From Chloroflexota bacterium (GTDB lineage Bacteria > Chloroflexota > Anaerolineae > JAAYZQ01): a stretch of DNA of 64,000 bases. The stretch lies in assembly GCA_018606645.1 (NCBI GenBank), contig JAGVRI010000010.1, positions 1-64,000 on the forward strand, read 5' to 3'. How positions within the stretch are numbered: the first letter of the stretch is position 1; each line of letters opens with the position of its first letter. Position numbers and translations under genes: made by a program. Below, piece by piece: positions 28,613 to 43,202 of this stretch. The notes beneath the pieces are model-generated. The model did no database searches, was not told the DNA's origin, and saw nothing but the letters and a program-made list of their open reading frames with translations.

Positions 28613-28684
28613 GCCCCCGTAGCTCAGAGGATAGAGCAGCGGCCTCCGGAGCCGTGTGCGGGCGTTCGAGTCGCCCCGGGGGTA
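28613..28684 (+). tRNA. tRNA-Arg(CCG)
   Basis: A complete 72-base cloverleaf can be drawn: acceptor GCCCCCG/CGGGGGT (one G-T end pair), D stem GCTC/GAGC, anticodon stem GCGGC/GCCGT around CTCCGGA with anticodon CCG, and T stem GGGCG/CGCCC around TTCGAGT. The CCA end is not encoded. It reads CGG codons. Bases 28649-28686 are repeated perfectly at 45018-45055, so the gene has served as an integration site and still reads as intact. Confidence 0.93.
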
Positions 28685-28794: not shown

Positions 28795-29004
28795 TCACCA
28801 GCCGAGGCCAAGGAGGGCGTAGGTCAGAAAGGCGCCCAGAGCAAACGCCGCCAATGCCAGCAGAACCAACAGCGCGCTATCGAGAGAGGCAGCTTGGGCC
28901 TCATCCTGGTACCGCCGGAGCCGCAGGAGGCCCCATGTTACCAGGCCCAGCACAAGTCCAACCAGCAGGCTGAGCAGCAACGGGATCGGAACCGTGGGCG
29001 TCAT
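28795..29004 (-). CDS. Two-pass small membrane protein of the island
   Basis: I do not recognise this 69-residue protein. It has two hydrophobic helices (about residues 7-26 and 44-66) joined by a short charged cytoplasmic-type loop RLRRYQDEAQ. The ATG is preceded by AAAGGA at suitable spacing. Its promoter at 29120-29186 carries the same 11-base-spaced boxes as the P-type ATPase and M50 operon promoters, which ties it to the island regulon. A small regulatory or accessory membrane peptide is a reasonable guess. Confidence 0.65.
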   Translation of the reverse strand: MTPTVPIPLLLSLLVGLVLGLVTWGLLRLRRYQDEAQAASLDSALLVLLALAAFALGAFLTYALLGLGW

Positions 29005-29119: not shown

Positions 29120-29186
29120 AGTATAGCACGCATGAGGCCGGCGCGTCCTTGCGCCGGCCGATCGACCACCTTACGTTCGCCTTAAG
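29120..29186 (-). promoter_or_regulatory. Island regulon promoter 1 (small membrane gene)
   Basis: Read on the minus strand, boxes start at 29186 (CTTAAGG), 29175 (CGTAAGG) and 29164 (CGATCGG), 11 bases apart; the third is degenerate. Sixteen bases after the third box start comes GGACGC (29148 to 29143, preceded by AA), then 17 bases, then TATACT (29125 to 29120). These distances equal those at 31792 and 34747. The leader to the start codon is about 110 bases. Confidence 0.65.
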
Positions 29187-29208
29187 GCGGGGAGTTATGG
29201 TATGTGTG

Positions 29209-30648
29209 CTATGGAAGAGGGAGCCAGATGGTGAAGTGGCTGCCCTTTCCCGGGGTGCTCTGTAGCTCCAGCCAACCGCCGTGGGCAGCCACCAGACTGC
29301 GGGCAATGCTCAGGCCGAGTCCCATGCCCTGGGGGAAGCGTTGGTCTGCCTGACTCCGGTAGAACGGGGTGAACACGCGCTCTTGTTCTTCGGGCGCGAT
29401 GCCCGGACCGGTGTCGCTGACCCGGATCCATACTGCGTTCTTGTCAACTCCGGCGGCTACCGACACGGTGCCTTTGGCTGGCGTGTACTTGACGGCGTTG
29501 CTGAGAAGATTGCCCAGGGCCTGGCCTAGCCGGTCGGGATCCACCTGCAGGTTGGGAAGACCGTCTGGCACGTTGTCTTGCCAGTGCAGCTCTTTCGCCC
29601 GGGCGGCCTCTCTCCAAGAGGGCAGGCTGCTGGTCAGCCACTGGCCGATGTCGGTGGGTTGGCGATGCAACTCCAACGTGCCCAAGGTCTGCCCTTGTAG
29701 ACCCACCAAGTCGTCCAGGAGGCGGCGCATGTGGCCAACCTGCCCGTGCATCCCCTCCAGCAATTCCTTCCGGAGAGCCTCATCCCGGCCCGATCGCCCT
29801 AGTAGGGCATGAATCGCCGATTCCAGCGCTCCCAGCGGCCGCCCCAACTCGTGCACCAGGTTGGACAGCAGTTGGCGACGCATCTGCTCCTGGGACTGCA
29901 GCCTCTCGACAAGCGTGTTGACAGAGTGCTTCAGTTGCGCCAACTCCTGGGGTCCATCTTCTGGTAACGGCAGCGCCTGTTTGCTTCTGACGAGCTGTGA
30001 GATGGCCTCATTCACCTGCTGTAGAGGGCGCTCCAAGTTCAATGCCAGAAAAAGGCCGGCAACGACACCTAGCAGCAGGCCCGCCACCATAACCCCGGCA
30101 ATGAGATAGCGGAGGCGCAGGAATCGTTCATAGACAGTGCTCAGGCGGTGGCTGAGGCGGACGACTCCTACCACCTGCCGGTCCTGGCCCCGCACGGGGA
30201 CAAACGCATCCACGATCTCTCGACGAATTCTCTGGCTGTAGGTCGTCCGCACGCTGGTCTCGCCTGCCGCGATGGAGGCCCAATTGGCAATTTGGAGCTG
30301 ATGACCCAGGCGGTCGGCATCGGCTGCATCACTCGAAGCCAGCAGGCGCCCCAGCGGGTCGAGCAGCATGACCCGCGCGTCCACCGACTGCGCGATCTCG
30401 GCGACAAACACCTGGGCCTGAGAGGCATCGCTCCAGATGTCAGGCTTCTGCTGAGCGCTCTGAGCAGCCAGCAGTGCCTGGCCTCGCAGGTCGGCGGTGA
30501 GGTTGTCCAGAAGGACATGCCTCTCCACCATGTAGATGAGCGCCATACCCATGAGGGGCACAATGATGGCAACGGGCAGGACGTGACTGAGGACAAGCCG
30601 CTGTCGCAGGGTCCGAAGCATCACTCCTTTTGGTCGCAGGCTGGGCAT
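29209..30648 (-). CDS. Sensor histidine kinase
   Basis: This 479-residue kinase has one membrane helix at about 21-41, an extracytoplasmic sensor of about 140 residues, a second helix at about 182-204, then a HAMP-like linker. The phosphorylated histidine is His266 in [13 protein letters not shown]. The ATP-binding domain shows the N box [14 protein letters not shown]1 [13 protein letters not shown] box TPFYRS and G2 GMGLGLSIA. The start overlaps the regulator stop by one base (TGATG), so the pair is coupled. The sensor has an acidic cluster (DAADAD) but too little similarity to name a ligand. Confidence 0.9.
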
Positions 30649-31355
30649 CAGGCCTCCCCCTGAGGCTCCAATTTGTACCCCACTCCCCGCACCGTGACGA
30701 TCCGACGCGGGTTGTCTGGATCATCACCCAGTTTCAGGCGGAGCCAGTGGATGTGCACATACACGACCTGGGGCTCGCCCACGTACTCCGCTCCCCACAC
30801 ACGAGCCAAAAGGTCATCCACAGAAAGTACATGTCCCGGCTCCCTGGCCAGGGCCTGCAGCAGGCCAAACTCCAAAGGGGTGAGCTCAACAGGCCGTCCG
30901 GACACTGTAACCAGATGAGCAGCGGAGTCAATCGTCAAATCACCGATTTGTAAGAGGCCCACTTTCGCCTCCGGAGGGGAAGCGAGCTTCTCCGCACGGC
31001 GCAATACAGTCCGGATTCGGGCCAGCAGCACATCGACAGAAAACGGCTTGGTGATATAGTCTTCGGCACCCAGTTCCAGGCCCAACACTTCGTCGAGCTC
31101 GCGTCGCCGGGCAGTCACAAAGATAACAGGCACACCCACGCGTGACTGGAATTGACGCAAGGCGGCCAGGCCGTCGATGCCTGGCAGACCGATGTCCAGG
31201 AGGATCAGATCGGGCCGGTCACGGGCGGCGAGGGCCAGGGCGTCTTCGGCGCTTGCCACGGCGCTGGCGCGGTAGCCGGCTTCCTCCAGATTGAGTGCCA
31301 GGCTGCGGCGCAGAAGCGGATCGTCATCCACCAGCAGGATATGGGCAGGAGCCAT
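30648..31355 (-). CDS. OmpR-family response regulator
   Basis: The 235-residue protein has a receiver domain ([15 protein letters not shown], phosphoacceptor Asp54 in [13 protein letters not shown], conserved Lys in YITKPFS) and a C-terminal winged helix from about 135 ([45 protein letters not shown]). Regulators of this type bind tandem direct repeats 11 bases apart. Exactly such repeats occur at three promoters of the island, which makes them its probable targets. It has its own promoter and leads the regulator-kinase operon. Confidence 0.93.
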
Positions 31356-31385
31356 CTGCTGTCTCCTTCGCTACCATTTGCTGTC

Positions 31386-31414
31386 ATTATATCACCTCGT
31401 CCCTACCCGGTCAA
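31386..31414 (-). promoter_or_regulatory. Promoter of the response regulator-kinase operon
   Basis: TTGACC (31409-31414), 17 bases, TATAAT (31386-31391) on the minus strand, about 30 bases before the ATG. No CTTAAG-type boxes are seen here, so the pair seems constitutively transcribed rather than autoregulated by the same boxes. Confidence 0.7.
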
Positions 31415-31459
31415 ACGGACGTGCCCAATCCAAGTGTTACTGACCGAACGATGTTGTCA

Positions 31460-31743
31460 ATCTGACCTGTCTTCCCCGTCCACGAAATCCACCCCGACAA
31501 CGACAGTAAGTTCTTCAATCATCATCCTCTCCATCTCAACGGCAACGAGTGGAGGCCCTGCGGGGCCGGACTAACCCTAACTCCCGCACGAGGCTTGATC
31601 GACTCCGTCTCGTCCTTTCCCGGCGCTGTCCCTCACGCGACCGAGGATGTTCGACTCACCCTGATGTCCACTCCCAGCTTGCTCCACGGCGATGACCGCC
31701 TGCCATCTGCGGTTGTTGCCAATTCGAACGACACGCCCGGTAC
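31460..31743 (+). pseudogene. Transposase (DDE integrase-core) relic
   Basis: An open frame without a start contains VHEIHPDNDSKFFNHHPL at about 31478-31531, which resembles the DNGSEFINHH motif of IS integrase cores. The frame runs on to a TGA at about 31753 without further recognisable motif. No terminal inverted repeats are evident. It lies between the regulator promoter and the P-type ATPase promoter, and is most likely a decayed insertion sequence. Confidence 0.45.
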
Positions 31744-31791
31744 CATCGTTATTTGACTTGAGACGACAGGCAGGTTCGAGGACGAGGCACG

Positions 31792-31858
31792 CTTAACCCC
31801 CTCTTAAGACATTCTTCACAGGGCCACAAGGACAAGAGAGAAGATGCCGTGTTATGAT
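31792..31858 (+). promoter_or_regulatory. Island regulon promoter 2 (P-type ATPase)
   Basis: Three direct repeats start at 31792 (CTTAAC), 31803 (CTTAAG) and 31814 (CTTCAC), each 11 bases apart. GGACAA (31830-31835, preceded by AA) takes the -35 position and TATGAT (31853-31858) the -10, 17 bases apart. The poor -35 and the helical phasing of the boxes indicate an activator-dependent promoter for an OmpR-type regulator. Confidence 0.75.
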
Positions 31859-31882
31859 CGTGCGGCAGAGGAGGGAACGGCG

Positions 31883-34513
31883 TTGAAAACGGTCGGGAAT
31901 TGGCATGCCCTGACGATCGAGGATACGTTGCAGCAACTGGGCAGCAGCGTACGCGGATTGACATCGGCAGAGGCTGCCGAGCGCCTGGCGCGCTTCGGGC
32001 GCAATGAGATCGTGCGCCGCAAGCCTGTGTCGCCGCTGCGTCTGCTTGCGCGGCAGTTCGCCAGCTTCTTTGTCATCGTCCTGCTCTTTGCCGCTGCCTT
32101 GGCGTTCGTGGTCAGTTTCATGCCTGGAGAGAGCGAGCGAAGGCTGACCGCGTTCTTTATCCTGGCTATTGTCATCCTCAGCGTGGCCCTGAGCTTCTTC
32201 CAGGAGTACCGCGCCCAGAAGGAGCTGGAGTCGCTGGACAGGCTGCTGCTGTTCAGGGCGGTCGTCATCCGCGACGGCATCCACCGGCAGGTGGACGCGG
32301 CGGAGGTGGTGCCAGGCGATCTCCTGGTGCTCTCCCAGGGACAGAAGGTCCCAGCCGACGCGCGCGTGCTCGAGTCCCACGGCATGCGGGCCGACGAATC
32401 CGCTCTCACCGGTGAAAGCGTGGGGGCGGACAAGGCCCCCGAGCCTGTTGCGCCCGAGGCGCCGCTCGCTGAGCGGAGCAGCATGGTCTTTGGCTCCACG
32501 TTCATCACCCACGGCAGTGGCCTGGCCATAGCCGTCCGCACCGGCATGACCACAGAGGTCGGGCAGATTGCTTCCTCAATGCAGCAGATGGCGGACCGGC
32601 CCACGCCATTTCAGGTAGAAGTCCATAAGATGGCCCGCCAGATGACCATTATCGTTGGCACTTTGGCGGTAGTCGTGGGCCTGATTCTGCTGTTTGCCTT
32701 GCACCAGCCGCCCGTCGAGGTGGCGGTGAACACGCTCAGCCTGGCCGTAGCCACCATCCCAGAGAGCCTGCCTATCGTGCTGACCTTCGCCCTGGCCCTG
32801 GGGGCGCGCCGTATGGCGGCGCGTCGGGCAGTGGTGCGGCGCCTATCCGTGGTCGAGTCGCTGGGCTCGGTGGACACCATCTGTACCGACAAGACCGGGA
32901 CGCTCACGCAGAACAGGATGGCGGTGCAGCGCCTGTTCTCGGGTGGGAGGCTGGTGCCGATGTCGGAGGGTTCGGTGAGTGAGGACGGGATCGAGGAGTT
33001 GCTGCGGGCCGGCATGCTGTGCAGTGAGGCGACCAACGGCGAAGGCGGGAAGGATGACATCCTTGGCGATCCTGTCGACAAGGCATTGCTCCGGGCGGCT
33101 CAGTCAGCCGGCCTCAACACGTCGCGTGAGAGGGCTGCCTATCCGAAGGTGAGCGAAATCCCGTTCAGCCCCGAGCGGAAGATGATGACGACGATTCATC
33201 GGCACAATGGGGGCATGGTGGCCTATGCCAAGGGCGCGCCAGGCGCGATCCTGGCCCACTGCACCTCCTGCTGGTACGAGGGGCAACGCCTGCCCCTGGA
33301 AGACGACCGCTGCCGGTCTGTGTACGAGGTCATCAGGCGCCTGCAGGGGGAGGGGATGTACACGCTGGCCCTCGCCCGGAAGGAGGTGGTACTGAACCAG
33401 GCGGCCGAGGACCCGGAGCAGAGCATGACCTTCCTTGGTTTGCAGGCACTCGTCGACCCGCCACGGCCCGAAGCGGCGCAGGCAGTAGCCCAGGCGCAGG
33501 GCGCAGGCATCCGCGTAGTCATGATCACCGGCGACAATGCCCTGACTGCCCAGTCCGTCGCCGGCCAGCTTGGCATCGGGCACCGCGCCATCTCTGCCGA
33601 GGAATTGGAGGCACTGACCCTCTCGCAACTCGTGGAACGCATGAAAGAGGTAGACGTGGTAGCTCGCGCTACCCCCCAGGTCAAGCAACGAGTGCTCCAG
33701 GCGTTGCAGAGTGAAGGTCACTTTGTGGCGATGACCGGCGATGGCGTGAACGATGCCATGGCGCTCAAGCAATCGGACGTCAGCGTGGCGATGGGCCAGC
33801 GCGGCACCGACATTGCCAAAGAGTCGGCAGCCATGGTCCTGACCGACGATAACTTTGCCAGCATTGTCGCCGCCGTCGAAGAAGGCCGGCGTATCTTTGA
33901 CAACATCCGCAAGTTCACTAACTACCTGCTCAGTACCAGCCTGGGCGAAGTGTTGGTCGTCCTGGTGCTGTCGGCCTTTGGCTACTTTCCCCTGTCGGCC
34001 ACAATGCTGCTATGGGTGAACGTCGTAACGGACCTGGTGCCGGCGAGCGCGTTGGCGGCTGATCCAGCAGTGCCAGGCATTATGCAGCGCCGTCTGCGTC
34101 GTCACGACGAACCGATTCTGAACAAGGCGATCTATGCCACCATCGCCGGCAGTGCCCTGCGTACCCTGGTCGCTTACAGCCTGGTTTTCTGGGCCGGGCT
34201 GCACCTGGGGGGTACCCCTTATGCACGGACCATGCTCTTCACTGCCATCGTCCTGCACGCCTTCACCCGGGTGATGGTGGTACGCCAGTTGGACAAGCTC
34301 TCCATTTGGTCGAACCCGGCGCTTCTGTGGAGCTACGCTGTAGCGGTGGGCCTGCAGTTGCTGGCGCTGTACACCCCGCTGCGTGCCCTCTTTGGCGTTG
34401 TGTCGCTGGATTGGCGGGCGTGGGCGGTCATGCTGCCGGTAGTTGCCGGCTCGTCGGTCGCCGGCGTGTACATGACGCGCTGGATCTTGAAGCTTGTTCC
34501 GCTCTGGGAATGA
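31883..34513 (+). CDS. Type-II P-type cation ATPase (Ca2+-ATPase-like)
   Basis: This 876-residue pump has an N-terminal cation-ATPase domain, the actuator motif LTGES, the helix-4 motif ATIPESLPIV, the phosphorylation site CTDKTGTLTQNRM (Asp336) and the hinge TGDGVNDAMALKQSDVSVAM. It has about ten membrane helices. The pattern is closest to SERCA/PMR1-type calcium or manganese pumps, but the ion is uncertain. I chose the TTG at 31883, which has GAGGAGGG upstream; the ATG at 31844 would lie upstream of the predicted transcription start. It is the first gene to the right of the regulator pair. Confidence 0.88.
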   Translation: MKTVGNWHALTIEDTLQQLGSSVRGLTSAEAAERLARFGRNEIVRRKPVSPLRLLARQFASFFVIVLLFAAALAFVVSFMPGESERRLTAFFILAIVILSVALSFFQEYRAQKELESLDRLLLFRAVVIRDGIHRQVDAAEVVPGDLLVLSQGQKVPADARVLESHGMRADESALTGESVGADKAPEPVAPEAPLAERSSMVFGSTFITHGSGLAIAVRTGMTTEVGQIASSMQQMADRPTPFQVEVHKMARQMTIIVGTLAVVVGLILLFALHQPPVEVAVNTLSLAVATIPESLPIVLTFALALGARRMAARRAVVRRLSVVESLGSVDTICTDKTGTLTQNRMAVQRLFSGGRLVPMSEGSVSEDGIEELLRAGMLCSEATNGEGGKDDILGDPVDKALLRAAQSAGLNTSRERAAYPKVSEIPFSPERKMMTTIHRHNGGMVAYAKGAPGAILAHCTSCWYEGQRLPLEDDRCRSVYEVIRRLQGEGMYTLALARKEVVLNQAAEDPEQSMTFLGLQALVDPPRPEAAQAVAQAQGAGIRVVMITGDNALTAQSVAGQLGIGHRAISAEELEALTLSQLVERMKEVDVVARATPQVKQRVLQALQSEGHFVAMTGDGVNDAMALKQSDVSVAMGQRGTDIAKESAAMVLTDDNFASIVAAVEEGRRIFDNIRKFTNYLLSTSLGEVLVVLVLSAFGYFPLSATMLLWVNVVTDLVPASALAADPAVPGIMQRRLRRHDEPILNKAIYATIAGSALRTLVAYSLVFWAGLHLGGTPYARTMLFTAIVLHAFTRVMVVRQLDKLSIWSNPALLWSYAVAVGLQLLALYTPLRALFGVVSLDWRAWAVMLPVVAGSSVAGVYMTRWILKLVPLWE

Positions 34514-34746
34514 ATGCAGAGTAGGGAAGATTATGTCACCAGAAAGAAGCCTAACACATGCGGGTCAGGCGTGCAGACGGTGGCGCCCCTTACCGCCGAG
34601 GCTCTGGAAGCCGCGTTAGCTCGGGCTGGTGATCAGCCGCCGCTGGTGATCCCGCGCGCGGGGCGAGGCTGACTACTGGATCCGGCTGAGTCGCCGATCG
34701 CAGAGCCTTGCCCGGCCACGGCGCTCGCAACCTGTGCGGGTCATGG
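34514..34746 (+). pseudogene. Decayed reading frame between ATPase and M50 operon
   Basis: Two short overlapping frames read APLTAEALEAALARAGDQPP and then, one frame over, ADYWIRLSRRSQSLARPRR. They look like one broken gene with a frameshift, perhaps a transposase, but the match is too weak to name. No start or ribosome site supports expression. The rest of the gap up to 34858 is the regulon promoter. Confidence 0.25.
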
Positions 34747-34813
34747 CTTCAGTCTGGCTTAAGGCAGACTTCAGCGAGAGGTAAGGACGAACTGGCTATG
34801 TCGGTGGTATAGT
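34747..34813 (+). promoter_or_regulatory. Island regulon promoter 3 (M50-HtrA-MprF-MgtA operon)
   Basis: Direct repeats CTTCAG (34747), CTTAAG (34758) and CTTCAG (34769) are exactly 11 bases apart. GGACGA (34785-34790, preceded by AA) and TATAGT (34808-34813) follow at the same distances as in the ATPase promoter. Transcription would start near 34820, about 40 bases before the M50 gene. Confidence 0.75.
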
Positions 34814-34858: not shown

Positions 34859-35977
34859 ATGAATCAGCGAGGGATATCGTTGGGACGCGTTTTTGGCATC
34901 CCTATCCGATTGGACTATTCCTGGTTCCTGGTCTTTGCCCTGGTGGTCTGGACGCTCGCCGCAGGCTATTTCCCGGACGAGTTCAAGAATTGGCCGACTG
35001 CCCAATACTGGGCAGTAGGCATCGTCACCGCCATCATGTTCTTCGCCAGCGTCATCCTTCATGAGCTAGGACATTCGGTGGTGGCGATGCACTACAAGAT
35101 CCCGGTGAGCAGCATCAGTCTCTTTGTCTTTGGCGGTGTGTCGCAGATCGAGGCAGAACCCGCCAGCGCCAAGGTCGAGTTCTTGATGGCCGTGGCAGGC
35201 CCGTTGGTGAGTTTCGCGCTGGCGGGTGTCTTCGGGCTGCTGCAATTGGCTTTCGCGGCGTCTACACCGGCGCTGGCCTTGGTCAGGTATTTGGCCTACA
35301 TCAACGTCGCGCTGGGTGTTTTCAACCTGATCCCGGGATTCCCCCTGGACGGCGGTCGTGTTTTCCGATCCATCGTCTGGGGTATGACCGGTAGCCTGCG
35401 CCGTGCGACGACCGTTGCCGGCAATTTGGGACGCTTCATCGGCTTTCTATTCATCCTGTTTGGCGTATACCAGGCGATCGGCGGCAACTTTGTCAACGGC
35501 TTGTGGATCGGCTTCATTGGCTGGTTCCTGGAAGGCGCCGCCCTGTCGCAGGTACAACAGCAAAGGATCCACGACCTGCTGGCCGGCCGTAAGGTGTCGC
35601 AGGCGATGAGTACCGCCTATACACCCATCCCGCCCGACATCAGCGTCCAGGAACTGGTGGACAGGCACATCTTGGGCAGCGCTCAACGCAGCTTTGTGGT
35701 CGAGGACGGCGATCGCGTCGCCGGACTGCTGACCATGCACTGCATCAAGGAGGTGCCCCGCGAACAGTGGCCGACGACCTCGGCGGGCCGCGTCATGATC
35801 CCGCTGGCCAAGGTGAAGCGGACCACCCCTGACACCGAATTGTGGGCTGCCATGGAGGAAATGAACCGTGACGGCGTAAACCAGCTACCGGTAATGACGG
35901 ATGGCCGGATTCTCGGCATGCTGCGCCGGGAAGATGTCATTGCCTACCTTCGCAATCTGCGTGAGGTCGGTCTGTAA
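34859..35977 (+). CDS. Site-2-protease-like M50 metalloprotease with CBS domains
   Basis: The 372-residue membrane protease has the zinc motif ILHELGHSVVAMHYK (HExxH, first His at 68) and the third ligand region NLIPGFPLDGGRVFRS. Five or six hydrophobic segments make up residues 1-220. A cytoplasmic pair of CBS domains follows from about 235 (VSQAMSTAYTPIP, QLPVMTDGRILGMLRREDV), which may sense adenine nucleotides. Such proteases cut regulatory membrane proteins. AAGGAGG precedes the ATG. It is the first gene of the large island operon, directly before the HtrA-like protease. Confidence 0.92.
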   Translation: MNQRGISLGRVFGIPIRLDYSWFLVFALVVWTLAAGYFPDEFKNWPTAQYWAVGIVTAIMFFASVILHELGHSVVAMHYKIPVSSISLFVFGGVSQIEAEPASAKVEFLMAVAGPLVSFALAGVFGLLQLAFAASTPALALVRYLAYINVALGVFNLIPGFPLDGGRVFRSIVWGMTGSLRRATTVAGNLGRFIGFLFILFGVYQAIGGNFVNGLWIGFIGWFLEGAALSQVQQQRIHDLLAGRKVSQAMSTAYTPIPPDISVQELVDRHILGSAQRSFVVEDGDRVAGLLTMHCIKEVPREQWPTTSAGRVMIPLAKVKRTTPDTELWAAMEEMNRDGVNQLPVMTDGRILGMLRREDVIAYLRNLREVGL

Positions 35978-36068
35978 AAGGTGAGAGGAACAACACCTCA
36001 GGAGAATCTTGACAGCTATGGGGGCTCCTATGAGAACGAAAACGAAAAGGGTGAAAGGGAGATCTGAA

Positions 36069-37664
36069 ATGGTTTTCAATGTAAAGCGTCAGCCCTGGTT
36101 CATTGTCACGCTGCTCCTGTCGGCGCTCGCGCTGTCGAGCTGCAGCGTTCCGGCTGTCGACTTGAGGGGAAATGCCTTGGCTACGGCTACGGTGACAGCG
36201 CCGATGCAGACAAGCGCGCTGCCGGCAGTAGATGCCGGGATGCTCGACGCCCTCCAGGGTACCTTGGAGCAGGTGTATAAGCAGGTCAACCCTTCTGTGG
36301 TGAGCGTCCTGGTGCTCGAGAATGCCCCGGTATTCAGTCTATTTGGGGGTTCGCCGGCAGTGCAGACCGTCCTTGGCTCAGGCTTTGTCTGGGACAAAGA
36401 GGGGCATATTGTCACCAACAACCATGTGGTGGACGGGGCCAGCCGGATCAGCCTGCGCTTTGCCGATGGAAGGGTCGCCTCTGCCAAGGTGATCGGCACT
36501 GACGTGAACAGCGATCTGGCCGTTCTGAAGGCGGACGTGCCGGCCGCATCCTTGCAACCGGTGCAGCTTGCCGACTCGACGCAGGTTCAGGTCGGCCAAT
36601 TGGCCATTGCGATTGGCAACCCTTTTGGCGAGGAAGGTACCATGACCTTGGGCATCGTCAGTGCCGTAGGCCGCACGTTGCCTGTGCAGTCCGGCACGGC
36701 AGATAATCTGAACTACAGCATCCCCGATGTCATCCAGACCGACGCGCCCATCAACCCCGGGAATTCGGGCGGCGTGCTGGTCAACTCCCAAGGACAGGTC
36801 ATTGGCGTGACGGCAGCTATCGAGTCGGCGGTGCAGTCCAGCGCCGGGATCGGGTTTGCCATCCCGTCGCTCATCGTGCAGAAGGTGGTGCCGGCCCTGA
36901 TCAAGACCGGCCACTACGACCACCCATACCTGGGGATCAGCGGCATCGACCTGACGCCTGACCTCGCTACAGCCATGGACCTCAACGCGGATCAGCGCGG
37001 TGCCCTGGTAGTGACCGTGACGGCGGGCGGGCCTGCCGACAAAGCCGGGCTGCGCGGCAGCGATCGTCAGACCCAGATCAACGGCGTGTCGGTGCCAATA
37101 GGCGGAGATGTGATCGTGGCGATCGACAGCCAGGCCGTGCGGCAGTTCGACGACCTGCTCTCCTACCTGGCGCGGAGCACCGAGGTCGGCCAGAAAGTTA
37201 CACTCACCATACTGCGTGATGGCAAGGAGATGATCCTGGATGTTACCTTGGCAGCGCGCCCTTCGCCCGGGGCAGCAGAGTCTGCCAGGACAACCAGCAC
37301 TTCGGAGGGAGCCTATCTGGGCATCGATGGGGTGACTTTGACTCCCGAGATTGCCCGCGCGATGGACCTGCCCGCCAATCTGACAGGGGTGCTGGTGCAG
37401 GCAGTGCAGCCGGGCAGCCCGGCGGACCAAGCGGGTCTGCGCGCTGGCAACGAGGCGGTGACCCTAAACGGCCAGCAAGTAAAGATCGGAGGCGACCTCA
37501 TCTTGGGTGTTGACGGCTTACCTGTGCCATCGATGGACGACCTGACCGCATTGCTTCAGCAGGCACAGCCGGGCCTGACGGTCACGTTGCAAGTCCTGCG
37601 CGACGGCCAGTTGGGAACCATCGATGTGACGTTGGGCGAACCGAGGGCCTCCACCACTGGCTAG
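36069..37664 (+). CDS. HtrA/DegP-like serine protease lipoprotein with two PDZ domains
   Basis: The 531-residue protein has a lipoprotein signal with lipobox ALSSC near residue 25. The trypsin-like domain carries the full triad: His119 (NNHVVDGA), Asp149 (NSDLAVLK) and Ser233 (NPGNSGGVL). Two PDZ domains follow (about 305-405 and 425-525). It would degrade or refold damaged proteins on the outer face of the membrane. I chose the ATG at 36069, which has GGGAGA seven bases upstream and gives a normal signal peptide; a TTG at 36009 is possible. It may act in sequence with the M50 protease upstream. Confidence 0.92.
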   Translation: MVFNVKRQPWFIVTLLLSALALSSCSVPAVDLRGNALATATVTAPMQTSALPAVDAGMLDALQGTLEQVYKQVNPSVVSVLVLENAPVFSLFGGSPAVQTVLGSGFVWDKEGHIVTNNHVVDGASRISLRFADGRVASAKVIGTDVNSDLAVLKADVPAASLQPVQLADSTQVQVGQLAIAIGNPFGEEGTMTLGIVSAVGRTLPVQSGTADNLNYSIPDVIQTDAPINPGNSGGVLVNSQGQVIGVTAAIESAVQSSAGIGFAIPSLIVQKVVPALIKTGHYDHPYLGISGIDLTPDLATAMDLNADQRGALVVTVTAGGPADKAGLRGSDRQTQINGVSVPIGGDVIVAIDSQAVRQFDDLLSYLARSTEVGQKVTLTILRDGKEMILDVTLAARPSPGAAESARTTSTSEGAYLGIDGVTLTPEIARAMDLPANLTGVLVQAVQPGSPADQAGLRAGNEAVTLNGQQVKIGGDLILGVDGLPVPSMDDLTALLQQAQPGLTVTLQVLRDGQLGTIDVTLGEPRASTTG

Positions 37665-37793
37665 GTCAGACGGACACAGCTCGACTGTGGCGCGTTTGCT
37701 ACCCTACACTCGGTGGTCAGGACGCCCTGCTCTGGGCAGGCTCCGCGAGATACAGACCGACCCACCGGAGCATGTCTAGATCAAAGGTGGCTG

Positions 37794-39557
37794 ATGGACG
37801 ACACCGATTATCCGAGTAGCGAAGCCCAACCGGGCACAGAGCAACCGCGAGCGGTTGTTCTGCCTGGTCCGTCGGCCGGCCGTTGGCAACGATTCTCGAC
37901 CGCCTTCCGGCGGGATTGGCCTACCTGGCTGGTGGCGGGGGCGACCCTCGCCAATGGCCTGCTGGGCATTATATCCGTGCTGGGGGTGCGTTTCCGTGAC
38001 CGGCCTGCCCTGTTCAATGTGCCGCTGCCCTTCGGCCTCTATCACTGGAGCCGCTCCCTGTCCCTGGTGTTCGGCTTTGCCCTGGTCTACCTGTCGTTCC
38101 ATCTTTTCCAGCGCCAGCGGGCAGCCTGGGGGCTCGCCCTCGGTGGTGCGATCATGGCTGCGGCAGCTCATCTCGGGCGGGGATATCTGTGGTATGTCGC
38201 TCTGGGGCCGATGACGGCTGCTGTGTTGCTGCTCGTCTTTCGTCAGCGTTTCACAGTCCGCAGCGAACCGCGCAGCATTGCCCAAGGGGTGGGCATGATG
38301 CTGCTCAGCCTGCTCCTGGCCTTGGCCTACGGGACGTTCGGCTTCTGGCTACTGGACACGGCAGACTTTGGCCTGCAGTTCAACCTCGCCGACGCGCTAC
38401 TACGAACCTTGCGCGAGTTCAGCCTGGTGGGCAACACCGACCTCGTGGCGCACACCCGCCACGCCCGCTGGTTCCTGGACTCGCTGGATCTGCTGGGCCT
38501 GGTCGCCGGAGGGGTTGCCTTCTACAGTCTCTTCCGGCCGGTGGCGTACCGTCAGCGGGCCTTGCCTCAGCAGCGAGAGCTGATGAAGCGCATCCTGGAG
38601 CAGTATGGCGGCACGTCACTCGACTACTTCAAGCTCTGGCCGGACAAGTCCTACTTCTTCTCGGCGGATCAAACGTGCGGCATCGCCTATAGGACGGTGG
38701 GCGGTGTGGCCCTGGCCCTCGGCGACCCCGTTGGCGCACCCGAGCAATTAGAGGAGACCATGCACGCCTTCCTGGGCTACTGCAGAGATAACGGCTGGGC
38801 AGTCGCCGTGCACCAGGCACTGCCGGACCTGCTGCCCATGTATCATCGGCTCGGTTTGCAGTCCCTCAAGATCGGGGAGGAGGCAGTCGTCTGCCTGGAG
38901 CGCTTGGCCAACACCGTTGAGCACAGCAAGCACTTGCGCCATGTTCGCAACAGATTCGAAAAGGAGGGGTACACTCTCGTCCGCTACGTTCCCCCCCACA
39001 GCCGAGCGTTGTTGAGCGAGGTCAAAGAAGTCTCTGACGAATGGCTCCAGATCCCAGGGAGACATGAGCGCAGCTTCTCTCTCGGCTACTTCGACCCGGG
39101 CTACCTGAATCAGTTCCCGCTAGCCGTGCTCCGGGAACCATCGGGGCGAATCGTCGCCTTTGCTAACGAGGTCCGCTCCTATCGCCCCGGCGAAGCCACT
39201 ATCGATCTAATGCGCCACCGGCTGATGGTGCCGAACGGCACGATGGACTATCTGTTTATCACCCTGATGCTGAGTCTGAAGCAACTGGGCTACCGCACGT
39301 TCAACCTGGGCATGGCGCCCTACGCCGGCGTCGGCGACGAGCCGGGCGCTCCCTTGGAGGAGCACGCCGCTCACGAACTGGCCGAGCACCTGACCCGCTT
39401 TGGTTCCTACAAGGGGATCCGGGAGTACAAGGCCAAGTTCGAACCGGAGTGGGAGGACCGCTTCCTGATCTACCAGGGCGGGCCGCTGGGCCTGGCCCGG
39501 ACCGCCGTCGCTTTGGTGCAGGCCACCGATCGTCAGGTCAGGAGTGAAAGACAATGA
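37794..39557 (+). CDS. MprF-like lysyl/alanyl-phosphatidylglycerol synthase (DUF2156)
   Basis: The 587-residue protein has a disordered N terminus, six hydrophobic segments (about residues 45-260), then a soluble DUF2156 domain with two GNAT-like halves (YGGTSLDYFKLWPDKSYFFS, then RFGSYKGIREYKAKFEPEW). Family members transfer an amino acid from aminoacyl-tRNA to phosphatidylglycerol, reducing surface negative charge. The flippase half of canonical MprF is absent here and is encoded by the next gene, which overlaps by four bases. The amino acid is unknown. The ATG at 37794 has AGGTGG upstream. Confidence 0.85.
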   Translation: MDDTDYPSSEAQPGTEQPRAVVLPGPSAGRWQRFSTAFRRDWPTWLVAGATLANGLLGIISVLGVRFRDRPALFNVPLPFGLYHWSRSLSLVFGFALVYLSFHLFQRQRAAWGLALGGAIMAAAAHLGRGYLWYVALGPMTAAVLLLVFRQRFTVRSEPRSIAQGVGMMLLSLLLALAYGTFGFWLLDTADFGLQFNLADALLRTLREFSLVGNTDLVAHTRHARWFLDSLDLLGLVAGGVAFYSLFRPVAYRQRALPQQRELMKRILEQYGGTSLDYFKLWPDKSYFFSADQTCGIAYRTVGGVALALGDPVGAPEQLEETMHAFLGYCRDNGWAVAVHQALPDLLPMYHRLGLQSLKIGEEAVVCLERLANTVEHSKHLRHVRNRFEKEGYTLVRYVPPHSRALLSEVKEVSDEWLQIPGRHERSFSLGYFDPGYLNQFPLAVLREPSGRIVAFANEVRSYRPGEATIDLMRHRLMVPNGTMDYLFITLMLSLKQLGYRTFNLGMAPYAGVGDEPGAPLEEHAAHELAEHLTRFGSYKGIREYKAKFEPEWEDRFLIYQGGPLGLARTAVALVQATDRQVRSERQ

Positions 39558-40594
39558 CAGAACAACCGAAACCCGGTCGCCAACGCCTGGTCATCGGCAT
39601 CGTCGTCGCTCTGGTGATCATCGGCCTATTGGTGCTCGTACTCGACTGGCGCGACGCGCGGAAGGTGCTCGGCGAAGCAGACTGGAGGCTGGTGCCGGCG
39701 GCCCTGTTGTTCACGGCCATCTCTTATGCTTGCCTGAGCTTCGGCTTTGCCACAGCCAACCACATCTTCGGCGTCCACATGAGCTGGCTCGATCTGTCTG
39801 AGATCGGCTTTGTGTCCAGTGTCCTGAATCACCTGCTATCGGCGGGGGGTGCGGCCGGCTATTCCGTGCGCCTCTTGCTGATGCGCGAACAGGGGGCAGT
39901 GCTGCAAGACATCGTGGCTGCGTCGCTGTTCAACTCCTATCTGGACAGCCTCGGGATGCTGGCTCTGCTGCCCATCGGTCTCGGATACCTCCTTGCCAGG
40001 CACCCGCTCTCGCCGGGGACAACCGTTGCTGTCGGGATCGCCGCCTTGTTGCTGATTATCCTCTTTTTCCTCGCCACGGCCATGGTCCTGGTGCATCCGC
40101 TACGCAGTAGCGTGCTCCGGAATCTGGAGAAGGTCGCGCGCCGGCTGACGCACCACGACCTGACTCATGCCCTTGACGAGTTTGACGCGACCATGTCGCG
40201 GGGCGTGGGCGTGGCGCGGACCCGGCCCCTCCTGCCGGCGCTCATGATCGCTCTAGTACTGACCGACTGGAGCGCCTGCGTAGCGGCATTGTGGGTTTGC
40301 TTCCACGCCCTTGGCAACCCCATCTCCCTCGGCGTGTTGCTGACTGGCTTCACCCTGGGCGTCACCGCTGGCGTGCTTTCGATGTTGCCGGGCGGCCTGG
40401 GCGTGCAGGAGAGTTCGATGGCTGGCCTCTATTCCCTGCTAGGCGTCCCGTTCCATCGTGCCGTGCTGGCTTCCATCTTATTCCGGGTGGTTTACTACCT
40501 GATCCCCTACCTGGTCAGTCTCGGCTTCTACTGGTGGCTGCTGCGGCGACTGGGACACGCCACAGCGGAAACCAGCGCCTTGACGGAATCATGA
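39554..40594 (+). CDS. Aminoacyl-phospholipid flippase-like protein (UPF0104)
   Basis: This 346-residue integral membrane protein has about eight hydrophobic segments and belongs to the UPF0104 (LPG_synthase_TM) family, equivalent to the N-terminal flippase half of MprF. AGGAAGYSVRLLLMREQG and MLPGGLGVQESSMAGLYSLLG are typical. It would move the aminoacylated lipid made by the upstream enzyme to the outer leaflet. The ATGA overlap with the synthase gene gives translational coupling, and the MgtA-type gene starts 10 bases after its stop. Confidence 0.87.
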   Translation: MTEQPKPGRQRLVIGIVVALVIIGLLVLVLDWRDARKVLGEADWRLVPAALLFTAISYACLSFGFATANHIFGVHMSWLDLSEIGFVSSVLNHLLSAGGAAGYSVRLLLMREQGAVLQDIVAASLFNSYLDSLGMLALLPIGLGYLLARHPLSPGTTVAVGIAALLLIILFFLATAMVLVHPLRSSVLRNLEKVARRLTHHDLTHALDEFDATMSRGVGVARTRPLLPALMIALVLTDWSACVAALWVCFHALGNPISLGVLLTGFTLGVTAGVLSMLPGGLGVQESSMAGLYSLLGVPFHRAVLASILFRVVYYLIPYLVSLGFYWWLLRRLGHATAETSALTES

Positions 40595-40604
40595 AAGGAC
40601 CTCC

Positions 40605-43202
<2,598 letters not shown>

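Follow-up and report, generated by a model that had tools for sequence, protein, structure and literature searches.

A CTTAAG-box array as the candidate operator of an OmpR/PhoB-family envelope-stress regulon in Chloroflexota

The window considered here comprises 64,000 nucleotides of a Chloroflexota genome (assembly GCA_018606645.1, contig JAGVRI010000010.1, positions 1 to 64,000), and near its middle lies a two-component system in the company of genes for membrane and envelope proteins. The response regulator (30648-31355, minus strand) is of the OmpR/PhoB family, combining a receiver domain with a Trans_reg_C domain (PF00072, 97 bits, and PF00486, 94 bits, both above the Pfam gathering thresholds), and it has orthologues of 54-73% identity in the class. 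It scores below the cut-offs of the NCBIfam equivalogs MtrA (220 of 300 bits), CseB (209 of 350), and RpaB (190 of 330), and likewise below those of the WalR(YycF) and PhoB models; no CiaR model occurs among its best 25 NCBIfam matches. The adjoining gene (29209-30648, minus strand) encodes a sensor histidine kinase with sCache_3_2, HAMP, HisKA, and HATPase_c domains in Pfam, the sCache-like domain being extracytoplasmic. Beyond the kinase lies the gene for a 69-aa two-helix membrane protein (28795-29004, minus strand) that is conserved in relatives, and just past it is a tRNA-Arg (CCG) gene (28613-28684).

On the plus strand, a P-type ATPase of the Ca2+-transporting type (31883-34513; nearest model TIGR01522, below its cut-off) probably starts at TTG 31883, behind the Shine-Dalgarno sequence GGAGG, since the longest open reading frame (31844) begins upstream of the -10 hexamer described below. 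It is followed by genes for an M50 metalloprotease with a CBS domain identified by Pfam (34859-35977), an HtrA/Do serine protease with two PDZ domains (36009-37664, or possibly from ATG 36069), an MprF-type lysylphosphatidylglycerol synthase domain protein (37713-39557), an MprF-type flippase-like membrane protein (39554-40594), and an MgtA-type magnesium-translocating P-type ATPase (40605-43202; above the TIGR01524 cut-off), all on the plus strand. From M50 to MgtA, the genes follow one another without interruption in the same direction, two of them overlapping at 39554-39557, an arrangement consistent with one operon that begins with the M50 gene, has HtrA as its second gene, and ends with MgtA. 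The GC content of the window is flat (0.60-0.65), giving no compositional sign of an island.

Three stretches of similar design lie in front of these genes. Site A (plus strand, array at 31792-31833) precedes the P-type ATPase, site B (plus strand, 34747-34788) precedes the M50 gene, and site C (minus strand, 29145-29186) lies directly after the kinase gene and before the small membrane gene; the P-type ATPase, the M50-to-MgtA operon, and the small membrane protein are their respective predicted targets. Direct reading of site A gives the boxes CTTAAC at 31792, CTTAAG at 31803, and CTTCAC at 31814, followed by GGACAA at 31830 and TATGAT at 31853. The corresponding elements of site B are CTTCAG (34747), CTTAAG (34758), CTTCAG (34769), GGACGA (34785), and TATAGT (34808), and those of site C are CTTAAG (29186), CGTAAG (29175), CGATCG (29164), GGACGC (29148), and TATACT (29125). 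Counted from box 1, all three sites show the same distances (+11, +22, +38, and +61). AAGGAC at +36 and TATnnT at +61 are common to them as well, and so is an extended -10, with TGn directly before TAT: TGTTATGAT in site A (31850-31858, plus strand; at +58/+61 relative to box 1, the position seen in relatives) and, again by direct reading, TGGTATAGT in site B (34805-34813, plus strand) and TGCTATACT in site C (29120-29128, minus strand). For the two plus-strand sites, every base given by the first-pass annotation agrees, including the boxes repeated every 11 bases and the fixed distances to GGACRA and to the -10. Its placement of the minus-strand stretch 29186-29120 in the same frame also holds, with identical distances and a third box, described as weak, that agrees with CTTAAG at only 2/6 bases. 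Site C is accordingly the weakest of the three, with 17/24 box matches versus 19 and 20 for the other two; it is accepted despite its poor box 3 because its place behind the kinase gene is kept in relatives, which is the best argument in its favor.

The GGACRA element, preceded by AA, had been described as a non-standard -35, and its position is exact. It is not a free-standing -35, however: the AAGGAC element, spanning +33 to +41, falls one further 11-bp step along the array and forms a fourth box (CACAAGGAC at 31825-31833 in site A, GGTAAGGAC at 34780-34788 in site B, and CGCAAGGAC at 29153-29145 in site C). In relatives, this box reads NTTAARGAC, and the GAC behind it matches the same three bases in TTGACA, with a spacing of 17 when the -10 lies at +60 and of 18 when it lies at +61. 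Judged from the bases, the supposed -35 is thus best described as box 4 fused with the GAC remnant of TTGACA. In site C, exactly this box 4/-35 segment is the loop of a perfect 9-bp inverted repeat (GGCCGGCGC-AAGGAC-GCGCCGGCC, 29136-29159 on the minus strand; fold z -2.7). No run of T follows the repeat, and it is not obviously common to relatives; it could be a terminator of the kinase gene that overlaps promoter C.

A 21-base pattern matches the 4.27-Mb genome at exactly A, B, and C when up to 3 mismatches are allowed, and its reversed control matches nowhere, although the pattern was written from the sites themselves and is therefore circular as a test of chance. A foreign sample was assembled from the DNA around approximately 65 orthologous regulators (54-73% identity) of Anaerolineae, 896 kb in all, in which an array was defined by at least 17/24 matches to four CTTAAG boxes at period 11. 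Such arrays occurred 40 times, compared with none at period 10 and two at period 12, and other six-base palindromes and periods yielded almost no arrays. A control sample, 879 kb of DNA flanking 78 unrelated OmpR-family regulators drawn from other bacteria, contained three arrays at a score of at least 17 and none at 18 or above. A profile search of genome contigs with the regulator alignment returned mainly non-orthologous OmpR-family regulators, which were used as controls, and added two Chloroflexota orthologue loci (L180 and L223). About half of the 67 regulator loci (36 at the threshold of at least 17) lack an array in the DNA examined, many of the contigs being short. In a few of the foreign loci, L153, L156, and L158 among them, the array is near-palindromic and its orientation relative to the gene is ambiguous.

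The spacing of the promoter elements provides a further line of evidence. The 40 foreign arrays were picked by their boxes alone, without regard to the -10 spacing or the GAC extension, and a -10-like hexamer is nevertheless found at +60 or +61 in 33 of them, compared with no more than two at any other offset from +39 to +93. The first-pass annotation had proposed to ask whether such sites fall in coding DNA as often as in promoters, and this comparison proves weak. Whichever strand is read, CTTAAG gives TAA, and steps of 11 bp bring it into all three frames, so a full array (at least three full CTTAAG boxes at 11-bp spacing) cannot lie within a gene. An exclusively intergenic location is consequently no independent proof, and a better test, passed by 33/40, is the fixed distance to the -10. 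The same property shields the operator from false sites in coding DNA. In one genome without the regulator (G222, locus L265), a CTTAAG array composed of repeated CTTAAGGACAA units has no -10; this is probably a tandem repeat, scored falsely as an array.

A scan of the window by weight matrix bore out all three sites. The matrix was trained on 38 foreign sites, with C/T-T-T-A-A-G over the first steps and, at box 4, NTTAA[G/A]GAC, and over approximately 128,000 window positions it placed B (31.5 bits), A (24.2), and C (16.9) at ranks 1, 2, and 3, against a best score of 13.8 bits in 2 Mb of Markov-random sequence; the CTTAAG unit itself came from the window, so that the matrix resembles the window sites by design. 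That three intergenic stretches merely resemble one another by chance is hardly conceivable in light of these results. The frame was found by eye, and site C has just two good upstream boxes, but a matrix holding no sequence of this genome puts A, B, and C at the top of the window and the controls are near zero, which refutes chance for A and B. For site C, the score above the best of 2 Mb of random sequence, the identical frame, and the conserved place behind the kinase gene speak against it.

The array is also tied to the regulator across genomes. Among 396 genomes of the class, whose mutual dependence means that P-values indicate strength only, the array (at up to 2 mismatches) is present in 53/75 genomes with the regulator versus 14/321 without it; at the genus level, the figures are 33/46 and 7/176. 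Several of the 14 array-only genomes are congeners of regulator-bearing ones. The reversed-pattern control was found in seven genomes, one with and six without the regulator, and in the one relative of the same family (G001) the regulator is absent at E <= 1e-78. An array directly behind the kinase gene, as in site C, recurs in L059, L086, L087, L089, L116, L119, L131, and L138. Likewise, the small membrane protein stands behind the same arrays in L055, L085, L086, and L089, where it was aligned, and in L087; its homologue in L100 has no adjacent array.

The genes behind the arrays are of a consistent kind, and the expectation that the same boxes would precede orthologues of the window's genes was borne out by arrays beside orthologous regulators and before the same gene types. 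For example, all foreign regulator loci that hold HtrA (10/10) have a correctly oriented array ahead of this gene, in some cases with the small membrane gene between the two. An orthologue of the M50 protease in L111 also has an array, and in L055 the array is followed by a PRC-barrel gene and then a P-type ATPase. Elsewhere, FtsH, TerC, MoxR-type ATPases, HEAT proteins, GroES, HtpG, NEW3-domain proteins, and ABC ATPases or ABC exporters are found downstream. Outside the window, the same genome carries one array (C6:260120) before a NEW3-domain protein and beside a regulator paralogue, and another (C4:212420) before an ABC ATPase, and genes like these two targets have the array in other genomes as well. 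This range of targets supports the reading of an envelope and proteostasis regulon of an OmpR/PhoB-family system. Arrays of ambiguous orientation near the GroES/GroEL and HtpG genes of L153 and L156 hint that it extends to cytoplasmic chaperones.

The nature of the downstream genes also bears on a second interpretation, namely that the arrays are Pho boxes of a phosphate-starvation regulator of the PhoB or SphR type. The architecture is Pho-box-like, and in cyanobacteria three copies of the SphR box CTTAACCT, separated by 3-bp linkers and so repeating at 11 bp, precede phosphate genes (PMC1906773). The arrays described here share with them the CTTAA core and the head-to-tail arrangement of at least three copies at 11 bp, but the box ends in AACCT there and in AAG here. 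Moreover, inspection of the downstream genes brought no gene for phosphate uptake or a phosphatase to notice; the genes examined encode envelope and proteostasis functions (proteases, chaperones, membrane transporters, and ABC exporters), and the scores of the regulator against the PhoB family models fall well short of the cut-offs. A phosphate-starvation role is, as such, very improbable. The pho box of E. coli PhoB consists of 8-bp repeats with a 3-bp linker, ending 10 bp before the -10 (PMC1906773). It is alike in its tandem 11-bp repeats within a promoter, where the activator substitutes for a poor -35, and differs in half-site, signal, and targets and in that the end of the array lies one turn further from the -10 here.

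Among described operators, those of cyanobacterial SphR and of streptococcal CiaR come closest. The CiaR box reads NTTAAG-N5-TTTAAG, with its last box 10 bp before the -10 (PMC3091779), and CiaR targets include htrA and dlt (PMC8317062). Both systems use a TTAAG core in 11-bp direct repeats upstream of the -10, the class consensus here being YTTAAG-N5-CTTAAG; htrA, a main target of CiaRH, is represented by the 10/10 foreign HtrA loci and the site B operon; and a surface-charge operon belongs to each, dlt in streptococci and the MprF-like genes here. The differences are that the base before TTAAG is C here and T in the second CiaR repeat, that two boxes are present there and up to four here, and that the phyla are distinct. 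In addition, the core of box 4 ends at +38 and the -10 starts at +60/61, so that the last box stands 21-22 bp from the -10 rather than the ten of CiaRH, one helical turn further upstream. The system works like CiaRH but is not classed as a member, given this displacement of one turn and a likeness that lies in half-site and targets. A further thought, speculative and on balance unlikely, is that a class-wide Chloroflexota regulon and CiaRH share TTAAG and htrA through descent from, or repeated convergence on, a single ancient circuit controlling htrA, the duplicated regulators of the window genome now drifting apart in their recognition helices (His against Arg at 203) and boxes.

That duplication raises the question of which regulator binds. 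The paralogue in the same genome (G000:C6:259381-260160) is 71% identical to the window regulator and has its own strong array and no adjoining kinase; it may be served by a second related kinase (51%; G000:C1:133713-135110) or by the window kinase. Codon 203 of the window regulator (30747-30749), within the recognition helix (VHIHWLR), specifies histidine; the C6 paralogue and almost every orthologue carry arginine at this position, two others having His or Ser, and close by the window regulator reads RLKLG in place of REKLE. The fourth boxes of the window also differ from the consensus TT: at +35, two of the three window sites have C, whereas 90% of relatives have T. Given these deviations, the exact specificity of the window regulator may have shifted, and the changes in helix and box may be a sign that two paralogous systems are drifting apart, although so small a sample cannot carry the claim. 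It is possible, though doubtful, that the window boxes are operators of the C6 paralogue, or of both proteins, and that the window regulator is not the main controller. The paralogue retains the class-typical helix VHIRWLREKL, a strong array (C6:260120) belongs to its own locus, and the genome has another at C4:212420. However, it is the window that keeps the class-typical order of regulator, kinase, array, and small protein, while the C6 regulator is without an adjoining kinase, and the fourth boxes of the window differ from those of C6 and C4, as would be expected for diverged paralogues. With such a paralogue present, binding by the window's own regulator in particular is no more than likely. 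Of the initial proposal, which put the P-type ATPase, together with the M50-to-MgtA genes and the small membrane gene, under this regulator as one regulon, the regulon itself gains support from cross-genome synteny and co-occurrence, and the identity of the binder stands as likely.

Taken as a whole, it is highly probable that sites A, B, and C are operators of the regulator encoded at 30648-31355, acting alone or with its C6 paralogue, and that they would control an activator-dependent envelope regulon. A degenerate -35, an extended -10, and in-phase upstream boxes together make up the layout of activator-dependent promoters, as known from PhoB and CiaR. In the proposed mechanism, the kinase would sense an extracytoplasmic stress signal and phosphorylate the regulator, whose subunits would then align head to tail on four CTTAAG half-sites, 11 bp apart and on one face of the helix. 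Tandem head-to-tail binding of this kind has been described for the OmpR/PhoB family (PMC4832192). The last subunit would occupy box 4, fused to a degenerate -35 of which only the GAC of TTGACA is left, and the array would in this way set the activator against RNA polymerase at dependent promoters with an extended -10. The envelope would be restored by the HtrA and M50 proteases, by MprF-type lipid modification, and by the magnesium and Ca-type P-type ATPases, and the small membrane protein encoded beside the kinase may tune the sensor. Since box 4 overlaps the -35 position, repression or mixed control might also be imagined, with the bound regulator blocking polymerase at box 4 and stress relieving the block, but the activator-dependent layout makes this improbable.

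CpxRA, CssRS, and MprAB are familiar two-component systems that govern HtrA/DegP-type proteases and the upkeep of the envelope. The candidate system resembles these in the envelope-stress control of HtrA-type proteases and differs in half-sites and lineages. A limited literature search found no described envelope-stress operator or regulon in Chloroflexota; the regulon and its operator appear to be new, and their kind, an OmpR/PhoB-family envelope-stress system, is known. The arrays are very probably a real and previously undescribed stress-response switch of this familiar general kind. Chloroflexota is a phylum with few genetic tools, and the four-box operator, together with its promoter grammar (a -10 at +60/61, the extended -10, and the GAC remnant) and its targets, can be used to annotate many genomes. 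The likeness to the CiaR circuit poses a testable evolutionary question. Finally, the proposed regulon would link uncharacterised genes, including those for the 70-aa membrane protein, PRC-barrel and HEAT proteins, and NEW3/ABC exporters, to cell-surface proteostasis.
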